Source: Ghiorsea bivora
Lineage (GTDB): Bacteria; Pseudomonadota; Zetaproteobacteria; Mariprofundales; Mariprofundaceae
Length of the DNA stretch: 64,000 nt
Assembly (NCBI RefSeq): GCF_000744415.1
Contig: NZ_JQLW01000007.1
Span: 62,001-126,000 of the forward strand
Direction: 5' to 3'
This document shows positions 30,664-38,105 of the stretch, one piece after another. Numbering within the stretch: position 1 is the stretch's first letter; each line of letters begins with the position of its first letter. The notes under the pieces are model-generated. The model had not been told where the DNA came from and did no database searches. It saw only the letters and a list, made by a program, of their open reading frames with translations. A program made the translations under genes and the position numbers.

Positions 30664-30694
30664 TCATCACATCACATCACATGGTTACTTTAGA

Positions 30695-30726
30695 GTGATA
30701 AATTTGTGATATTTATGCCTTACACT
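30695..30726 (+). promoter_or_regulatory. Two 11-bp-spaced GTGATA repeats before a -10 (msrAB)
   Basis: GTGATA occurs at 30695-30700 and 30706-30711, exactly 11 bases apart. TACACT at 30721-30726, nine bases further, is a fair -10; no good -35 is present. The layout is like that of promoters activated by OmpR/PhoB-type regulators. The same repeat is upstream of the spondin gene at 33037. Confidence 0.5.
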
Positions 30727-30757
30727 GGTCACATCTTAAAAAAGAAGGTGAACTGTG

Positions 30758-31837
30758 ATGAATAAAGTCCGAAACTATACAATTGTTTTGATAAGTATTG
30801 CGCTTCTATTGCTCACCCTACCTACATTCATAACTGCCAAAGATGATATGGCAAAAGGTAGTATGATGGGAACAATGTCCAATACAGAAAAAGCGATTTT
30901 TGCTGGTGGTTGCTTTTGGTGTATGGAAAAACCATTTGAGCAGCTTGATGGTGTAAAATCTGTGGTTTCTGGTTACAGCACGGGCAATATCAAAAATCCA
31001 ACCTACCAAAATTATATGTCAGGTGGGCATTTGGAAGTGGTTGAAATTACTTATAACCCTGCACAAACAAGTTATGAAAAACTTTTGGATGTGTTTTGGC
31101 ATCAAATTGATCCTACCGATGCTGGTGGTCAGTTTGTGGATAGGGGATATGCATACACAACGGGCATTTTTTATTTGAATGAAAAACAACACAGCCTTGC
31201 TGAAGCTTCTAAAGCCAAGATAGAAGCAAGTGGGGTGTTTTCTAAACCGATTGTGACACCCATTAAACCAGCACAAACCTTTTATATGGCAGAAACATAT
31301 CATCAAGACTATTATAAAAAGAATCCCTTACGTTATTGGTATTACCGTAAAGGTTCAGGTCGTGACCAATATTTGGATAAAATTTGGGGAAAAGACCGAG
31401 GAGAGCATAAAAAAATGGCTGACTTAAAAGATAAACTTACACCGTTACAGTATGAAGTAACCCAAGAAGAGGGCACAGAACCACCATTTAACAATGCCTA
31501 TTGGGATAATAAAGAAGCGGGCATTTATGTGGATATTGTATCGGGTGAGCCGTTGTTTAGCTCCAAAGACAAATTCAAATCAGGCACTGGCTGGCCTAGC
31601 TTTGACCGCCCATTGGTGAAAGAGAATATCATTGAGAAGGTTGATCGCCGCTTATTTAGCACCCGCACCGAAGTGCGCAGCAAACAGGGTAATTCGCACC
31701 TTGGGCATGTGTTCAACGATGGTCCAAGCGAAACCACAGGCCTGCGCTACTGCATCAATTCCGCAGCCTTGCGCTTTGTTCCTGTGAGTGAACTTGAAAA
31801 AGAAGGTTATGGTCAGTTCTTAACTTCGTTTAAATAA
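30758..31837 (+). CDS. msrAB: Exported bifunctional methionine sulfoxide reductase MsrA-MsrB
   Basis: Repairs both S- and R-methionine sulfoxide in envelope proteins. The 359 residues have a signal or anchor (about 7-27), an MsrA domain with GGCFWCME (Cys52) and an MsrB domain with [11 protein letters not shown] (Cys332). The MsrB zinc cysteines are replaced ([13 protein letters not shown]), as in many fused forms. The ATG at 30758 has GAAGGTG at seven bases, so it is preferred over GTG at 30755. The thioredoxin-like delivery domain of Neisseria MsrAB is missing; another periplasmic reductant must serve. Confidence 0.93.
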
Positions 31838-31896
31838 CGTCGTAGTTTACAAGTGCTGAGTGTGATTACTTTTTAGACAGTAGATACGAATATTGT

Positions 31897-32736
31897 TTAT
31901 ACTCCATACGTTAAGACAGTCGTTACGCTAGCACCAAAAACGACAAAGGACATAGTCACCATAAACACAATCATGCTGCGTGATACGTTGTCCACATGCT
32001 TCTCATTTTTATGCTCGTCTCTTGTTTCAGTATGACTTGAATGGCTAGGTGTTGAATGTTCTTGCATATTTACATCATCACTATGATTTAGTCGCACCGT
32101 CATCATACCGTGCTTCATATGATTGGAAACTAACCACCAGTTTATCGGATAAGCTGCAATAAATCCTATCAATAATGCCATCGACATGATGAACCAGAAC
32201 TCCATTGATATTAGGCTACTACTTTCAGGTACCATACGCATGCCAAATGATGTAACGAGTACCATAGCTGCCATGAGATAATTCATTGAAACCAGTTCAG
32301 GTATAAATGTATTTTTTAGAGCCTTATAAAACGAACCACCTGACGACTCTTTCATAAACAAAGCCTGAAATATTGTCCATCCGAAGCCAAATCCCAGAAG
32401 GTATTCAAGACCAATTTCTGCTGGTTTAGATAAATGAATTATACTGCCAAGTATAGCGCCAGCTAATATTCCTAAGCCATCGCCAGCTACGCAGTGCATA
32501 GTTGAACCTAATACTTGGCGCCAAAGTGTTGCCGTGTATTTTTCGTGTAATCCAGGTAGTGGTTCGCGACATCCTAGTATGTATAAAAACGCTCCGATTG
32601 GCCCAGTATAGGCTGTGAGTAATATAAACCCCCATTTTAATACTGGCGACTCTGGAGTTTTAATGCTATCGATTGCAACAAATAGTACTGAAGCAGCCGT
32701 AAGAATAAACCATAGTAGCATTACACCTGATAACAT
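31897..32736 (-). CDS. DUF4396 polytopic membrane protein with His-rich loop
   Basis: A 279-residue membrane protein with about seven helices. GAFLYILGCREPLPGLHE and GSTMHCVAGDGLGILAGA, followed by SMNYLMAAMVLVTSFGMRM and AAYPINWWLVSNHMKHGMM, match DUF4396, a family of unknown function. A loop near residues 215-248 is rich in His, Asp and Glu (HSDD, HSTPSHSSH, DEHKNEKH) and could bind metal. It is divergent from the spondin pair and convergent with msrAB. Confidence 0.8.
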   Translation of the reverse strand: MLSGVMLLWFILTAASVLFVAIDSIKTPESPVLKWGFILLTAYTGPIGAFLYILGCREPLPGLHEKYTATLWRQVLGSTMHCVAGDGLGILAGAILGSIIHLSKPAEIGLEYLLGFGFGWTIFQALFMKESSGGSFYKALKNTFIPELVSMNYLMAAMVLVTSFGMRMVPESSSLISMEFWFIMSMALLIGFIAAYPINWWLVSNHMKHGMMTVRLNHSDDVNMQEHSTPSHSSHTETRDEHKNEKHVDNVSRSMIVFMVTMSFVVFGASVTTVLTYGV

Positions 32737-32855
32737 CTTGATTCACCTTAATTTTATTGTTAATGATCATAAATATGGGTGAGTAAAGTTATGATGTCAA
32801 TGTACCGCATATAACGCTGCAGATTAACCCTTCTGTGTTTGCATAAAATGAATAT

Positions 32856-32891
32856 AAAAAAGTGAAGTTTATTCATGTACTTAACTTTTTT
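32856..32891. terminator. Bidirectional terminator-like hairpin
   Basis: AAAAAAGTGAAGT (32856-32868) pairs with ACTTAACTTTTTT (32879-32891) with one mismatch over 13 positions and a 10-base loop. A T-tract ends the stem on either strand. Its place between divergent genes is odd for a terminator. Confidence 0.4.
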
Positions 32892-33036
32892 CACTATTGC
32901 TTCTTTTTCCATGTAATGCTCGGCAATAGGTATTACCTGTTGTGAAAGCTCCCTTTAAACATGGTGATATAGTTGTTACGATAATTACTTAGTCATATCG
33001 ATCCTAACTATGCAAACTATTAGACTTAGTTATCAC

Positions 33037-33075
33037 GTGATACAAATGTGATAAGTTGGTGATAACCGTGTGACT
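33037..33075 (+). promoter_or_regulatory. Four helically phased GTGATA-type repeats before the spondin gene
   Basis: GTGATA begins at 33037, 33048 and 33059 and GTGACT at 33070, all exactly 11 bases apart, on one face of the helix. The weak -10-like TTAATA at 33086-33091 begins 11 bases after the last repeat unit, similar to the msrAB site. The first repeat is half of a perfect palindrome. Binding by an OmpR-family regulator, perhaps that at 34680, is inference. Confidence 0.6.
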
Positions 33076-33135
33076 TCTCCATGCGTTAATAGCTGCGTTC
33101 CCAAAGAGGGGCAATAAAAATAAGGAGAAGGAATC

Positions 33136-33840
33136 ATGAAAAAACATATTACACTTGCAGGCATGGCACTTGGTTTGTTGATTAGCCAAAGTGCTTTTGC
33201 ACAAAACTTTACTGTTGCCGTGACCAATTTGACGAATGGTATCTATTTCACACCGTTGCTTGTCACCGCAGCACCATCAACCACACACCTTTATACACCG
33301 GGTATGGCTGCATCAGCCAATCTTCAAGCGATGGCTGAAGGTGGCGATACAGCGGGGTTAACAACAGACCTTATGGCAGTTGGCGCTGATATTGCAGCAG
33401 CCAATGCTACGCCAATGGCACCGGGTGCAACTGCAACGGCAACATTCACCAACACAGCCGCAGCCAACACACACTTATCGGTGGTGGGTATGCTTTTACC
33501 TACCAATGATGGCTTTGTTGGCTTGGATAGTATCATGGTGCCCACAGCCGCAGGCACATACACGTTCTTTGCCAATGCTTATGATGCTGGTACTGAAGCC
33601 AATAATGAACTTATTGTTGCGGGTAGTGGTGCGCCGAACACTTTGGGTATTCCTGCTGACCCGGGTGCTGCTAATGGCACGGGTGGTACAGGCGTTGCCG
33701 CAGTGGATGCCAATACAACCGTACATATTCACCGTGGCATCATTGGTGATACAAATCCAACGGCTGGCATCAGTGATTTGGATACAACAGTTCACCGCTG
33801 GTTAAACCCTGTGGCACAAATTGTTGTCACTGTGCAGTAA
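33136..33840 (+). CDS. Exported spondin-domain protein
   Basis: A 234-residue exported protein (signal peptide to about SAFA, residue 22) that fits the bacterial spondin_N family: FTVAVTNLTNGIYFTPLLVTA, the ASANLQAMAEGGDTAGL segment, VGMLLPTNDGFVGLDS and the HIHRGI turn near the C-terminus. The composition is Ala/Thr-rich with no cysteine in the mature part. Bacterial functions are unknown. RBS AAGGAGAAGG is strong, so high expression is likely. The second spondin gene follows after five bases. Confidence 0.82.
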   Translation: MKKHITLAGMALGLLISQSAFAQNFTVAVTNLTNGIYFTPLLVTAAPSTTHLYTPGMAASANLQAMAEGGDTAGLTTDLMAVGADIAAANATPMAPGATATATFTNTAAANTHLSVVGMLLPTNDGFVGLDSIMVPTAAGTYTFFANAYDAGTEANNELIVAGSGAPNTLGIPADPGAANGTGGTGVAAVDANTTVHIHRGIIGDTNPTAGISDLDTTVHRWLNPVAQIVVTVQ

Positions 33841-33845
33841 GGGAG

Positions 33846-34568
33846 ATGATGATGAATACTTATAAAAGTATCAATATTTTAGCCATCACCTTAGGTCTTG
33901 CGCTTTATGGTTGTAGCAGCTCTAGCACAACAACGCCAAGCAGTGGTGGTACAACTACACCAACCCCTGCATCGTATGAAATCACTTTAACCAATCTCAC
34001 GGGGGCACAAGCGATTGCACCCGTTGCCGTTGTTCTGCATACCTCAGGTTACAATATGGGTATGTTGGGAACTTCAGCAAGCCTAGCATTGGAAAAATTG
34101 GCTGAAGGTGGTGACAATGTCATGTTGCTAAGTGAAGCCAATGCCCACGCTTCTGTATTAACATCAGTGGGTGGGGCAGGTGCGATTATGCCTGCTGCAT
34201 CGGAAACATTGATGGCAAATGTGACTGATTCGGCAGGTTTGCAATTAAGCGTGGCAGGTATGCTGGTGAACACCAATGATGGTTTTGCAGCCCTACAAGG
34301 TTTGGATATTTCAACCTTGGCTGTGGGTGAATCAACATCTGCATTTTTAGCCGTGTTTGATGCAGGCACAGAAGCCAACACTGAAACAGCAGCAACCATG
34401 CCAGGCACAGGCGGGACGGGTTTTGATGCAGTGCGTGATGACACGGGCTTTATCAGCATTCATCGCGGTGTTGTGACTGTGGATGATGGTTTAGCCACAT
34501 CAGGCTTGATGGACAAACATCGGTTTGATAATCCAGCACTAAAAGTTGTTATCCGTAGAGTAAGTTAA
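33846..34568 (+). CDS. Spondin-domain lipoprotein
   Basis: A 240-residue paralogue of the preceding protein, but membrane-anchored: lipobox LALYGC at about residue 23, a Ser/Thr/Gly/Pro linker (SSSSTTTPSSGGTTTP), then the spondin_N pattern (YEITLTNLTGAQAIAPVAVV, LEKLAEGGDN, VAGMLVNTNDGFAALQGLD, ISIHRGVVT). One member soluble and one tethered suggests division of labour in the periplasm. Three ATGs (33846, 33849, 33852) are possible; GGGAG supports the later ones. A strong hairpin follows. Confidence 0.82.
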   Translation: MMMNTYKSINILAITLGLALYGCSSSSTTTPSSGGTTTPTPASYEITLTNLTGAQAIAPVAVVLHTSGYNMGMLGTSASLALEKLAEGGDNVMLLSEANAHASVLTSVGGAGAIMPAASETLMANVTDSAGLQLSVAGMLVNTNDGFAALQGLDISTLAVGESTSAFLAVFDAGTEANTETAATMPGTGGTGFDAVRDDTGFISIHRGVVTVDDGLATSGLMDKHRFDNPALKVVIRRVS

Positions 34569-34580
34569 AAGCAATGATAT

Positions 34581-34612
34581 GAAGCGGCATCAATTTTTAT
34601 TGGTGCCGCTTC
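34581..34612 (+). terminator. Hairpin after the spondin pair
   Basis: GAAGCGGCA-t-CAAT pairs with ATTG-g-TGCCGCTTC around a four-T loop, 13 pairs with one mismatch, starting 12 bases after the stop. No T-tract follows, so termination may be partial or the hairpin may protect the 3' end. Confidence 0.6.
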
Positions 34613-34679
34613 GTGGTTTGTAAGATCATAAAACCAAAACAAGACTACTTTATAAACATTAGGCATAGTTTGGAGTGAT

Positions 34680-35390
34680 ATGAACAAACAGATTCTCATC
34701 GTGGAAGACAACGCAGACCTTGCAAGCTTAATTGCCTTGCATGTGCAAGATATGGGTTGTACATCAGATATTGCAGGCGATGGCGGCAAAGCCTTGCGTC
34801 TTTATGAACAAAATGATTACGACCTTGTGCTTTTGGACATCATGTTGCCTGTGATGGATGGTATTGAGGTGTGCAAAAAGATGCGTGAGGGCGGTAAATA
34901 CATTCCCATTATGATGCTTACATCCAAAACATCTGAAATTGACCGCGTGGTGGGTTTAGAAGTCGGCGCTGATGATTATATCAGCAAACCATTCAGTATT
35001 CCTGAGCTGCTGGCGCGCATTAAAGCGCAGTTTCGTAGCGTGGATGCCTTGATTAAATCTCAAGAGAATGTGAAGCAAAATAACACCATGCAAGTGGGGG
35101 ATATGTCCATCGATTTGGCTAAACGGCAAGTCTTCATTGCAGACAAAGAAATTCAATTAACCGCCAAAGAGTTTGATTTATTGGTGTATTTTGCCAAACA
35201 CCCCGGGCAAGTGTTTACCCGTAGCCAACTGCTTGACCATGTGTGGGGTTATCAGTTTGAAGGCTATGACCATACCGTCAACACCCATATCAATCGCCTT
35301 CGTATGAAAGTGGAGCAAGATGCAGCCAATCCTGAATATATTCTTACGGTTTGGGGCGTGGGCTATAAATTTGGCGACAGTAAACGGTGA
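34680..35390 (+). CDS. OmpR-family response regulator
   Basis: A 236-residue regulator with a receiver domain (acidic pocket near Asp10, phosphorylation Asp53 in LVLLDIMLPVMDG, Thr/Ser in MMLTSKTSE) and an OmpR/PhoB winged-helix domain (about 140-232; LTAKEFDLLVYFAKHPGQVFTRSQLLDHVWGY). The kinase gene starts eight bases after its stop. Regulators of this type bind direct repeats with 10-11-base spacing, as found upstream of msrAB and the first spondin gene; that link is not proven. Confidence 0.92.
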   Translation: MNKQILIVEDNADLASLIALHVQDMGCTSDIAGDGGKALRLYEQNDYDLVLLDIMLPVMDGIEVCKKMREGGKYIPIMMLTSKTSEIDRVVGLEVGADDYISKPFSIPELLARIKAQFRSVDALIKSQENVKQNNTMQVGDMSIDLAKRQVFIADKEIQLTAKEFDLLVYFAKHPGQVFTRSQLLDHVWGYQFEGYDHTVNTHINRLRMKVEQDAANPEYILTVWGVGYKFGDSKR

Positions 35391-35397
35391 ATTGACC

Positions 35398-36876
35398 ATG
35401 ATACATACACTTTATGCACGCCTTGCGCTTACGCTGACACTGGCTTTGGGGCTGGTTGGTCTGATTTATGGTGTATTTATGTTTACCACCGTGCAGAAAA
35501 ATACCCAATATGCCGAACAATTGTTAAATCGTAACCTTGCAAAAACATTGGTGAATGAACGCAATCTTGTGCATGAAAACACATTGGATAAACAAGCACT
35601 CAAGGATATGTTTATGGCATATATGACGGTGAATCCAAGCATTGAAATTTATTTATTGGATTTGCAGGGTAAGGTTTTGTCCTATTCCGCAGACCCCGGG
35701 CAAGTAAAACGCGACCATGTTTCACTTCAACCTATTCGTGCATTTTTACAAAAGAATGCAAGTTTCCCCTTGCTCGGTGACGACCCTCGTTCATTGGATA
35801 GGCAAAAAGTTTTTTCAGTGACACCCATCCCCATGACGGATAATCCCAGTGGTTATTTATATGTGATTTTGAGAGGTGAGCAATATGATGCTGTAGAACA
35901 GTTGGCTAGGGATAAAGAATTATTATATTTGGGTGCTTGGGTGGTGAGCATTGCCTTGTTTGTCAGCCTTGTAGTTGGTTTATTGGTGTTTTATCCGATT
36001 ACACGTCGTTTACGTAAGCTTTCCCAACAGGTGGATGCATTTCGTCAATCTGAATTTAGAACATTGCCTGATTTTCAAGCATCAGAAGGCAAGGATGAAT
36101 TAAGTCAACTTGAGCGTAATGTGGCAGAAATGGCAAAACAAACCGTGCAACAGTTTGAACAGATATCCAAACAGGATGTCAAACGCCGTGACTTATTCGC
36201 CAGTCTTTCTCATGACTTACGCACACCACTTGCAGCATTACATGGCTATTTGGAAACCCTTGAAATGAAAGCAGACAGTTTGGATGAACAACAACGCCAT
36301 GCATATACTGAGCGGGCGATTAAGTTTAGTGATAGGCTGAAGCATTTAATTGATGAGCTGTTTGAAATGGCAAAATTGGACACCTTAGATTCAGCACCAC
36401 AAATTGAACCCTTTGCTTTGCCTGAATTGGTGCAAGATATGTTGCAGCAATATGAAGCTGGCGCACAACATAGGGGTGTATCTTTGGTGATGAAAGGCGA
36501 TACACATATGCCCTTGGTGCAAGCGGATATTGCCTTGATTCAAAGGGTGTTTGAGAATTTATTGGGTAATGCTTTGCGTTATGTTAAAAAGGGTGATGTG
36601 ATTACTGTATCATTGGAAAAGCATGATATGTATGTGAAGGTTGAGCTTGCTGATACAGGATGTGGCATACAGGAAGATATTTTACCGCATATTTTTGACC
36701 CTTTGTACCAAGGCAACAATACCCATCGTGGTGATGAGCATTCTGGGCTTGGCTTGGCGATTGTGAAGCGTATTTTGGAGCTTCATCAAAGCCATATCCA
36801 AGTGCAAAGTACATTAAACCATGGTACACGTTTCACATTTAGACTTTTTTATACAGGAGAGCACAACCATGCTTAA
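35398..36876 (+). CDS. Membrane sensor histidine kinase
   Basis: A 492-residue kinase. TM1 (about 8-31) and TM2 (about 178-200) flank a periplasmic sensor of about 145 residues with a PAS/Cache-like look; then HAMP (200-255), HisKA with His272 in SLSHDLRTPLAALHGY, and HATPase with N (RVFENLLGNALRY), G1 (DTGCGIQED) and G2 (HSGLGLAIVKRI) boxes. The ATG at 35398 gives a normal TM1; earlier in-frame starts lie inside the regulator gene. The ligand is unknown. It overlaps the FecR-like gene by eight bases. Confidence 0.9.
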   Translation: MIHTLYARLALTLTLALGLVGLIYGVFMFTTVQKNTQYAEQLLNRNLAKTLVNERNLVHENTLDKQALKDMFMAYMTVNPSIEIYLLDLQGKVLSYSADPGQVKRDHVSLQPIRAFLQKNASFPLLGDDPRSLDRQKVFSVTPIPMTDNPSGYLYVILRGEQYDAVEQLARDKELLYLGAWVVSIALFVSLVVGLLVFYPITRRLRKLSQQVDAFRQSEFRTLPDFQASEGKDELSQLERNVAEMAKQTVQQFEQISKQDVKRRDLFASLSHDLRTPLAALHGYLETLEMKADSLDEQQRHAYTERAIKFSDRLKHLIDELFEMAKLDTLDSAPQIEPFALPELVQDMLQQYEAGAQHRGVSLVMKGDTHMPLVQADIALIQRVFENLLGNALRYVKKGDVITVSLEKHDMYVKVELADTGCGIQEDILPHIFDPLYQGNNTHRGDEHSGLGLAIVKRILELHQSHIQVQSTLNHGTRFTFRLFYTGEHNHA

Positions 36877-37495
36877 AACGATACTTTTCACATTATGTTT
36901 GTCGTATGCATCAACAGCCCTTGCTGCTGATGGTAAGATTTACCTTCTTAAAGGCCCTGTGCTGATTAATGGTCATTTAGCATCCAAAGATACACCGATT
37001 CACTTTAGTGATGAGGTGCTTACGGGTGATAAAGCGCGGATTATCATGAAACTCGATGGCAGTGTGTATCGTATGGGTGGGCGTTCGCGTTTGGCATTGC
37101 CTGAACAAACGGAAAACTTTACTTTAAATGTATTTTTCGGCTCTGTTTTGGCTGTGTTTAAACGGAACACAGCCAAAACCATCCATACAAAAACTGCAGT
37201 GTTGGGTGTGCGCGGTACGGGTGTATTTTTAAATGTGGATCACGACCAAACATATTTGTGCACATGTTATGGTGATATAGATTTTTCAGATGTGAACGAT
37301 ATAGATAATGTGGCGCATATTCATGCTGAATACCATCAAGTGGTTGCCTTGAATCATCACACCCACAGCTTTTCCACACCCGCCATGGTTGGACATGTAA
37401 GCCAAGACCTATTTGAGCTTGAAGCACTCGCCGAACGCACGCCACCATCCACCTTTACCGTTGACGCTCATGCCAACAATAAAGTGGAATTTTAA
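36869..37495 (+). CDS. Exported FecR-domain protein
   Basis: A 208-residue protein with a signal peptide (to about LAA, residue 19) and a FecR domain: GPVLINGHLASKDTPIHFSDEVLTGDKARIIMKLDGSVYRM, FGSVLAVF and KTAVLGVRGTGVFLNV. The kinase-like anti-sigma helices of FecR are absent, so it is more like a stand-alone sensory or structural domain. ACAGGAGAG precedes the ATG at 36869, inside the end of the kinase gene, so it is coupled to the two-component system and may tune its signal. CLCTCYGDIDF carries two cysteines that may be redox-active. Confidence 0.75.
   Translation: MLKTILFTLCLSYASTALAADGKIYLLKGPVLINGHLASKDTPIHFSDEVLTGDKARIIMKLDGSVYRMGGRSRLALPEQTENFTLNVFFGSVLAVFKRNTAKTIHTKTAVLGVRGTGVFLNVDHDQTYLCTCYGDIDFSDVNDIDNVAHIHAEYHQVVALNHHTHSFSTPAMVGHVSQDLFELEALAERTPPSTFTVDAHANNKVEF
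37145..37179 (+). repeat. Perfect 14-bp hairpin inside the FecR-domain gene
   Basis: GTTTTGGCTGTGTT (37145-37158) and AACACAGCCAAAAC (37166-37179) are exact reverse complements around a seven-base loop. The segment encodes VLAVFKRNTAKT. It lacks a trailing T-tract. Confidence 0.7.
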
Positions 37496-37498
37496 TGC

Positions 37499-37665
37499 TA
37501 AGGAAGCCCTGAATAAGTCTGGATGAAATACATTGTATTTCAGGGTATTCAACATCAAGGCGTGAGTTGCATGGAATAGCACGGCTATTGCTTAAACTGC
37601 ACAACGCAGAGTTTGGATGCACTGGACACAATATATGCGTTCATGACTTGTTCAGAGATTCCCTA
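37499..37665. mobile_element. MITE-like 167-bp element
   Basis: Terminal inverted repeats at 37499-37519 (starts TAAGGAAGCCCTGAATAAGT) and 37645-37665 match at 17 of 21 positions without gaps. Both ends read TA outward, as for elements with a TA target. There is an internal 7-bp hairpin (GAAATAC-ATT-GTATTTC) and no coding frame. It begins three bases after the FecR-domain stop and ends six bases from the stop of the convergent DUF4399 gene. The ends resemble those of IS-derived miniature elements, but no parent IS is in the window. Confidence 0.6.
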
Positions 37666-37670
37666 ACCCC

Positions 37671-38105
37671 TTATTTTACCGTAATATGAATCGTGCGACT
37701 CATCACTTGACCATATGATTGGTGATGACCATCGGCAAACTGAAGTGTTAAGGTATGTTTGCCGGGTTTGAGTTTGATGGTGGTTTCCGTTTGCCCTTTG
37801 CCAAAATGGATATGTTTATCATCAGCAGGCACCACTTCATTTTCAGGAATATAAGCGCCATCAATGATTAAGTGATGATGTCCTGTGCCTTCAATGATTT
37901 CCCCCGCTTTGTGTACTCTCATGCCCTTGATGCCCATTTTCACAAGCAAAGGACTAGAGACGGTATCACCATCTTTGGGGCTGATAAATTGTGGACCTAA
38001 TGTGTATGACTGACTACATACGCCTTCATGCTGACATGCGGCTTGCGCCATGCTGCTGATGAAGAGTGTGCTTGTTAGTGCGAGAAGTGTGAACCAATAT
38101 TTCAT
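37671..38105 (-). CDS. Exported DUF4399 protein
   Basis: A 144-residue exported protein (signal to about AQAA, residue 22). FISPKDGDTVSSPLLVKMGIKGM, EGTGHHHLIIDG and KLKPGKHTLTLQFADGHHQSYG are the marks of DUF4399, a beta-sandwich family of unknown function that often carries conserved histidines. The ATG at 38105 follows AAAGGAGATT and is chosen over 38165. Four histidines in HHH and HH clusters could bind a metal; this is inference. It is convergent with the FecR-domain gene across the MITE-like element. Confidence 0.82.
   Translation of the reverse strand: MKYWFTLLALTSTLFISSMAQAACQHEGVCSQSYTLGPQFISPKDGDTVSSPLLVKMGIKGMRVHKAGEIIEGTGHHHLIIDGAYIPENEVVPADDKHIHFGKGQTETTIKLKPGKHTLTLQFADGHHQSYGQVMSRTIHITVK

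Follow-up and report, generated by a model that had tools for sequence, protein, structure and literature searches.

A predicted two-component regulon with a shared GTGATA operator links paired spondin-domain proteins to methionine sulfoxide repair in Ghiorsea bivora

What purpose might spondin-domain proteins serve in bacteria, a question on which no functional study appeared among the open-licence PMC matches listed? It is raised by a 64,000-nucleotide stretch of the Ghiorsea bivora genome (hereafter the window, which sits on a 270,777-base contig of a 2.15-Mb genome), in which two such proteins, Spo1 and Spo2, are encoded downstream of a fused methionine sulfoxide reductase (MsrAB) and just upstream of an OmpR/PhoB-type response regulator and a sensor histidine kinase. 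An earlier description made from the letters alone, here called the sequence-only reading, had grouped eight genes of this locus as a possible envelope-stress module, and all eight were recovered between positions 30755 and 38105 by open reading frame and Pfam checks (table 1). Here, we describe a regulon formed by one two-component system, one operator, and the spondins and msrAB as its predicted targets, which is well supported by comparison of sequences; that this regulon acts in the envelope against methionine oxidation, with the spondins as its older main output, is a reading that we consider probable while leaving appreciable room for doubt.

The phased repeats noticed before two of the genes, and taken at the time as a hint of joint control, turned out to consist of GTGATA-type half-sites placed every 11 bp before msrAB and spo1. 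In the whole genome, GTGATA-N5-GTGATA has four matches (one before msrAB, two overlapping before spo1, and one in a reading frame), and outside coding sequence the exact pair is found only before msrAB and spo1; read backward, the pattern has no match in the same genome. The fourth match was considered as a third target and rejected, for it falls within the reading frame L056:5008-5571, by eye a peptidyl-prolyl isomerase. A looser 26-base pattern, allowing up to three mismatches, finds 22 places versus 8 for its backward version, and therefore only near-exact sites are meaningful. The regulator encoded in the cassette is the presumed binder of these sites.

From a phylum-wide perspective, the spondin genes rarely stand alone. 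Among 397 genomes scanned, the spondin family was found in 30, three of them in the class Zetaproteobacteria, and 26 of the 27 loci outside the class were compared (G339, whose match contains stops, was left out): the Spo1-Spo2 pair was present in 23 and, within a few genes, the regulator in 22 and the kinase in 21, and 18 displayed the full same-strand order Spo1-Spo2-regulator-kinase. A set of named loci, the best 80 of at least 563 relatives, rich in Pseudoalteromonas and reduced to 77 by dropping the class repeats L110-L112, gave a similar picture, with the pair in 60, the regulator in 63, the kinase in 60, and the full order in 48; several of its contigs stop inside the cassette. In these counts, the cassette genes were called by BLAST with the window proteins at E 1e-3, such that a few distant kinases may be included, and loci close to the end of a contig (for example L114, L117, L119, L129, and L186), where genes may be cut off, were retained. 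Together with the OmpR-type regulator and the kinase encoded after it, the spondin pair makes up a conserved cassette, as the earlier grouping of the pair with the two-component system had supposed. Judging by titles, its hosts are mostly marine Gammaproteobacteria, together with metagenome-assembled genomes (MAGs) labelled Nitrospirota, Desulfosarcina, and Arcobacter. Among viral contigs, the 25 pattern matches included none related to Spo1, with a single-protein query that catches close relatives only.

The operator accompanies this cassette. The motif was taken from the window and then scored at the other loci as the 26-mer GTGATA-N5-GTGATA-N5-GTGA, with a threshold of 13 of 16 positions; of the 103 loci outside the class, L180 has two upstream bases only and was left unscored. 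Of the remaining 102 loci, 81 have the operator upstream of spo1; the corresponding figures are 6 of 925 for other genes at those loci, 2 of 102 when the opposite strand is scored, and 0-1 of 102 for each of four other spacings. It precedes spo1 in 70 of the 79 loci with the regulator downstream and in 11 of the 23 without it. Within class loci, half-site pairs are spaced by 11 in 37 cases, versus 2-7 for spacings of 7-10 and 12-16. The predicted operator is common to loci over the phylum, a feature that the sequence-only reading had missed. When 16 whole genomes picked for having spondins were searched, 12 of the 14 places with zero or one mismatch to the 26-mer fell at a spondin locus; the two others were discarded, L204 lying within a reading frame and L209 amid short unannotated frames with no recognisable envelope gene. 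Since near-exact sites are almost confined to spondin loci, the regulator seems, outside the class, to be nearly dedicated to the spondin operon. Alignment of 80 sites further reveals a fourth half-site. At the best offset, 40 of these sites agree with TATAAT in at least four of six letters (22 of 80 at the next best). PhoB is an OmpR-type regulator whose pho box consists of direct repeats with an 11-bp period, immediately before the -10 box, and by analogy the half-sites plus the placement of this hexamer would fit the layout of a PhoB-type activator. A fixed -10 distance was also checked within Zetaproteobacteria, where it came out not clear.

Within the class, the same two-component system is tied to methionine repair. 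The kinase is present in 21 of 78 class genomes (E 1e-40), and fused MsrAB in 19 of these 21 versus 5 of the 57 others (Fisher p 1.1e-11; which stretch of the query aligned served to tell fused from single-domain proteins, and G014, with a gene truncated at a contig end, counts as fused). By Pfam, the spondin pair is found in four of the 78, and in a fifth, G028, the contig ends inside spo2; the raw Pfam spondin count of 5/78 includes G058, of a different type, and misses G028. Scored in the class, some intergenic regions being common to divergent genes, the loci being related, and the near copies L040 and L041 both being counted, the operator precedes msrAB in 12 of 13 cases (window included), spo1 in 5/5, the regulator in 8/17, the kinase in 1/21, and unrelated genes in 0/95. 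The sole msrAB without it, at L047, is an additional and incomplete MsrAB-like gene; the genuine msrAB of that locus is truncated at the contig end. The proposal of joint control and the placing of MsrAB with the cassette are both borne out by these counts, together with the genomic placement and the 81 spo1 loci described above.

A further member joins the regulon in relatives and had gone unnoticed in the sequence-only reading: at 14 class loci, a small methionine-rich protein with repeats such as MMKDD or MMHDK and an apparent export signal is encoded, and the operator precedes its gene in 10 of the 14. Used as a query against the 78 genomes, one of these proteins gave matches in 13, of which 11 at the kinase locus, the two remaining matches (G072 and G050) falling inside longer frames; by this count, the peptide is associated with 11 of the 21 genomes that have the kinase and with 2 of the remaining 57 (p 2.6e-6). 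Four of the 14 peptides were scanned with the penta_MxKDx model TIGR02953, which gave one match, at 25.9 bits, below the cut-off of 41. Between the near-identical loci L040 (9571-9891) and L041 (3954-4328), the number of MMHDK-type repeats differs, and the methionine-rich array therefore grows and shrinks. L041 itself (G026:C318) is a second kinase locus in a genome classified in the window's genus that resembles the locus of G011, from another genus; given a recorded contamination of 6%, its contig is probably foreign.

Does the kinase depend on the spondins, or can it do without them? A rival reading, in which the spondins are periplasmic partners gating the kinase and the signal is something other than oxidants (ions, surface contact, or polymers), is favored by the same-strand order of spondins before regulator and kinase in both sets of loci and by the precedent of small periplasmic proteins that control an adjacent kinase, as in DbfQ-DbfRS (PMC12714742). 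However, 11 class loci (L038-L042, L044, and L046-L050) keep the kinase and msrAB together and, in the sequence available, lack spondin genes between the two or on either side; at one of these, L048 of G027, the order is MsrAB-regulator-kinase, with neither spondins nor DUF4396 between, and the spondin pair can therefore be missing from an otherwise similar locus. Moreover, in a 52-row kinase tree (a quick method, with a midpoint root just for drawing), one supported group, placed among spondin-linked gammaproteobacterial kinases, contains 14 of the 16 class kinases, with the other two nearby. The kinase therefore outlives the spondins, and we regard the gating of the kinase by spondins as unlikely. 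The nesting of the class kinases suggests that the spondin link is probably the older one, that the Msr and methionine-rich links joined later, and that spondins were probably lost in many class members. As for what a loss may look like, a single 127-residue frame at L045 (7296-7679) joins the start of Spo1 to the end of Spo2, and the pair seems to have collapsed there by in-frame deletion between duplicates. The reading frame between msrAB and this spondin remnant (L045:6244-6756) encodes a thioredoxin/AhpC-TSA-like protein that seems to carry a signal peptide and is a possible electron donor for MsrAB.

The kinase also bears on the nature of the signal. In its N-terminal sensor part, a methionine at residue 76 is present in 87 of 87 aligned relatives, and is possibly an oxidation sensor. 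Methionine- and histidine-rich peptides can bind copper, and a metal response could be envisioned in which the kinase senses Cu(I), the methionine-rich peptide binds copper, MsrAB repairs the methionines of metal carriers, and the spondins add metal sites. Indeed, the NCBIfam models that align with the kinase along its length include the heavy-metal sensor kinase model TIGR01386, at 2.3e-43, yet with 148.9 bits against a cut-off of 292.55, and msrPQ of Escherichia coli is copper-induced through CusSR (PMC9302797). However, no copper pump, oxidase, or chaperone was recognised by eye among the recurring neighbours listed, no profile search having been made, and what recurs instead, in one genus, is an H2O2-producing oxidase: a flavin amine oxidase of ~653 residues, homologous to L-amino acid oxidases, lies upstream of the cassette in eight Pseudoalteromonas loci, and the 653-residue oxidase of Pseudoalteromonas luteoviolacea makes H2O2 as the carrier of its antimicrobial effect (PMC6316408). 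Any other neighbour cluster occurs in at most 8 of the 103 loci, an M48 peptidase in five; Msr, the amine oxidase, and the M48 peptidase were identified, and most other neighbours were judged by eye. On this basis, we find a copper response distinctly improbable.

Table 1. Genes, predicted operators, and associated signals at the spondin locus of the window.
Feature	Position	Strand	Details
Operator before msrAB, three phased half-sites 11 bp apart	30684..30711	+	GTTACT 30684; GTGATA 30695, 30706
-10-like TACACT (4/6)	30721-30726	+	follows msrAB operator
Fused methionine sulfoxide reductase MsrAB	30755..31837	+	Pfam PMSR 1.3e-57, SelR 2.6e-48
DUF4396 protein, His-rich tail	31897-32736	minus	Pfam 3.3e-34
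Operator before spo1, four phased half-sites	33037..33075	+	GTGATA 33037, 33048, 33059; GTGACT 33070
-10-like GTTAAT (4/6)	33085-33090	+	follows spo1 operator
Spo1, exported soluble spondin-domain protein	33136..33840	+	Spond_N 33.2 bits (cut-off 24)
Spo2, spondin-domain lipoprotein	33846..34568	+	Spond_N 23.6 bits, slightly below cut-off 24
Inverted repeat between spo2 and regulator gene	34581..34612	+	93% complementary
OmpR/PhoB-type response regulator	34680..35390	+	Pfam Response_reg, Trans_reg_C
Sensor histidine kinase	35398..36876	+	Pfam match
Exported FecR-domain protein	36869..37495	+	FecR 26.7 bits (cut-off 24)
DUF4399 protein	37671-38105	minus	Pfam scan

Are the two spondins genuine members of their fold? 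The NCBIfam model NF038123 recognises both (172 bits for Spo1 and 154 for Spo2, cut-off 40), and Spo2, just short of the Pfam cut-off alone, reaches 24 bits when scanned with its frame neighbours. The closest named relatives of Spo1 among the matches listed come from Ghiorsea and Mariprofundaceae MAGs (74-91% identity), and a profile search matches spondin-2 (1e-8) and spondin-1 (0.0015). Foldseek aligns the predicted models of Spo1 (pLDDT 75.7, weak at about residues 150-220) and Spo2 (pLDDT 83.4) with the F-spondin domain of mindin, 3d34, at E 1.8e-11 and 2.6e-11, with TM-scores of 0.55-0.63 and a best non-spondin match at E 0.03 or worse; over the two F-spondin domains 3d34 and 3q13, the TM-scores are near 0.5-0.6. 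The acidic ND and DAGT loop residues, which we take to be the Ca2+ ligands of the F-spondin domain, align with both structures. As modelled, Spo1 and Spo2 are spondin-fold, C2-like domains with an aligned acidic loop, and the family models, together with export signals and a Spo2 lipoprotein box assigned by eye, agree with the initial description of one soluble protein and one lipoprotein. In L013 (G058:C169), from a different genus of the same family, the end of a contig carries another type of Spond_N protein with a much stronger match (2.8e-29).

Animal spondins are matrix proteins, and the bacterial proteins could accordingly be adhesins or matrix proteins responding to surface or ion cues, with msrAB recruited by chance in Zetaproteobacteria; the aligned acidic loop and the many hosts that are marine by title point in this direction. 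Against it, Msr genes adjoin the cassette in what look like separate branches (Zetaproteobacteria, a Hahellaceae MAG, and unnamed Gammaproteobacteria MAGs); the Msr proteins look exported at L129, L130, L140, L154, and L183 (Pfam done for L130 and L154), and that of L094 has no obvious signal peptide. Adhesion with a chance msrAB thus appears quite unlikely to us.

Returning to methionine oxidation, we propose the following scheme. The kinase would respond to a signal in the periplasm, oxidation being the most likely one and the invariant methionine a possible means of sensing it, and phosphorylate the OmpR-type regulator. Bound to three or four GTGATA half-sites with 11-bp spacing just upstream of a -10 box, the regulator would then activate transcription. 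In the window's genome, the targets would be the exported MsrAB and the spondin pair, with the downstream regulator and kinase as feedback; the inverted repeat after spo2 may act as a partial terminator, in which case regulator and kinase would be expressed at a lower level than the spondins. Relatives would also express the methionine-rich peptide, presumably sacrificial, while MsrAB, whose gene starts at GTG 30755 or ATG 30758 and whose signal peptide is followed by a methionine-rich stretch (both by eye), would convert oxidised methionine back to methionine. The spondins, one soluble and one lipid-anchored, would probably serve to shield envelope surfaces, or to keep them joined, during oxidation, as this combination of domains suggests a coat or a cross-link. 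Envelope oxidation is put forward because a methionine sulfoxide reductase and a methionine-rich peptide are among the partners, joined in one genus by a source of H2O2; among the readings weighed, the oxidant role first suggested for the locus fits best.

Several observations weigh against this scheme. Msr genes adjoin the cassette in just 6 of the 103 loci outside the class and, given also a near-exact operator almost confined to spondin loci in the 16 genomes searched, spondins do not generally go together with Msr repair. Even in the class, 13 of the 22 loci compared (window included) carry msrAB together with the kinase, in several other genomes it is on a different contig, and the counts treat related genomes as independent. 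The methionine-rich peptide was not found in the window or its genome, by a search that missed 3 of 14 known peptides, and the lack of a match is therefore no proof of absence. The invariant Met76 may be structural. The mature spondins are mildly enriched in methionine (2.8% and 3.6% versus 2.1%), too mildly for them to be retained as methionine sinks. With regard to the operator, 4 of the 16 spondin genomes have no place with zero or one mismatch, a tolerance of two gives 48 places versus 28 backward and mostly noise, and only 4 of 80 sites match TATAAT at five of six letters at the favored offset, so that the hexamer is weak.

The remaining genes are not supported as core members of the regulon, which narrows the eight-gene module of the sequence-only reading to the spondin pair, regulator, kinase, and MsrAB. 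DUF4396 was ruled out as a member: of the 78 class genomes, only that of the window has a match above the family cut-off (five more have weak matches below it), and the three related spondin loci lack it. It is encoded divergently, upstream of spo1, where two of the three related loci have the methionine-rich peptide. DUF4399 lies between the kinase gene and recA in loci of the window's genus, was not seen at class loci from other genera, and has no operator (0/10 loci). The FecR gene, whose start overlaps the end of the kinase gene, does follow the kinase as had been proposed, in seven loci (window included), all of them in the window's genus and none with an operator of its own (0/7), such that the FecR protein is, by this distribution, a genus-level add-on. 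Nor does the locus resemble FecIR surface signalling, with a FecR domain only and, as neighbours, the kinase and DUF4399 rather than a sigma factor and a receptor. Overall, the co-occurrence suggested as a check was found for the spondin pair with regulator and kinase throughout the phylum and for the kinase with fused MsrAB in the class, and failed for DUF4396 and, beyond the window's genus, for the FecR gene.

More broadly, and only tentatively, spondin pairs may be a dedicated and widespread oxidant-response output: matrix-like proteins of the periplasm and outer membrane that would protect the envelope or surface against oxidation, with their own two-component system and GTGATA operator, and with MsrAB and a methionine sink recruited in some lineages. 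The apparent shared control of the spondins and msrAB gives a first testable idea of what bacterial spondins are for: with a candidate regulator, an operator, a conserved operon, and partners of known chemistry, experiments in marine bacteria that can be cultured could address that function directly. The proposed regulon also joins two defences that had been described separately, the two-component control of methionine repair and methionine-rich peptides.

How does this system compare with those already known? With PhoB, it shares a receiver plus winged-helix regulator and direct repeats 11 bp apart, whereas the half-site sequence and the targets differ. The spondins share with F-spondin and mindin (3q13 and 3d34) the predicted fold and the aligned acidic loop, but the bacterial proteins are exported, operonic, and paired. 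The cassette itself is already on record in P. luteoviolacea, where the putative Pl-laao operon holds two Spondin_N proteins, an OmpR-family regulator, and a kinase beside the H2O2-making oxidase (PMC6316408). Among the open-licence PMC matches listed, this is the only paper naming a bacterial spondin pair; in its accessible passages, the cassette is named as neighbours of the L-amino acid oxidase, and the operator, the wider spread, the Msr link, and a spondin function do not figure there. In E. coli, the envelope two-component system HprSR controls the periplasmic methionine sulfoxide reductase MsrPQ under oxidants (PMC9302797, PMC10151825), and the present locus likewise sets an envelope two-component system beside a methionine sulfoxide reductase that its signal peptide, by eye, would place in the periplasm. 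Unlike the molybdenum enzyme MsrP with MsrQ, however, the reductase of the locus is a thiol-type exported MsrAB (MsrPQ was not searched for in the rest of the genome), and the main predicted target is a spondin pair preceded by 11-bp direct repeats. SigF/NrsF-YedYZ-MrpX of perchlorate reducers and BcrS/AbcS-bcrXQP of Brucella place a methionine-rich peptide and a methionine sulfoxide reductase under one control (PMC4623255, PMC10151825), as the window's relatives appear to do, with sigma/anti-sigma control there and two-component control here, and with no such peptide found at the window's locus. With its MsrAB, its different control, and its spondins, the system is therefore filed under neither the HprSR-MsrPQ nor the MrpX type.

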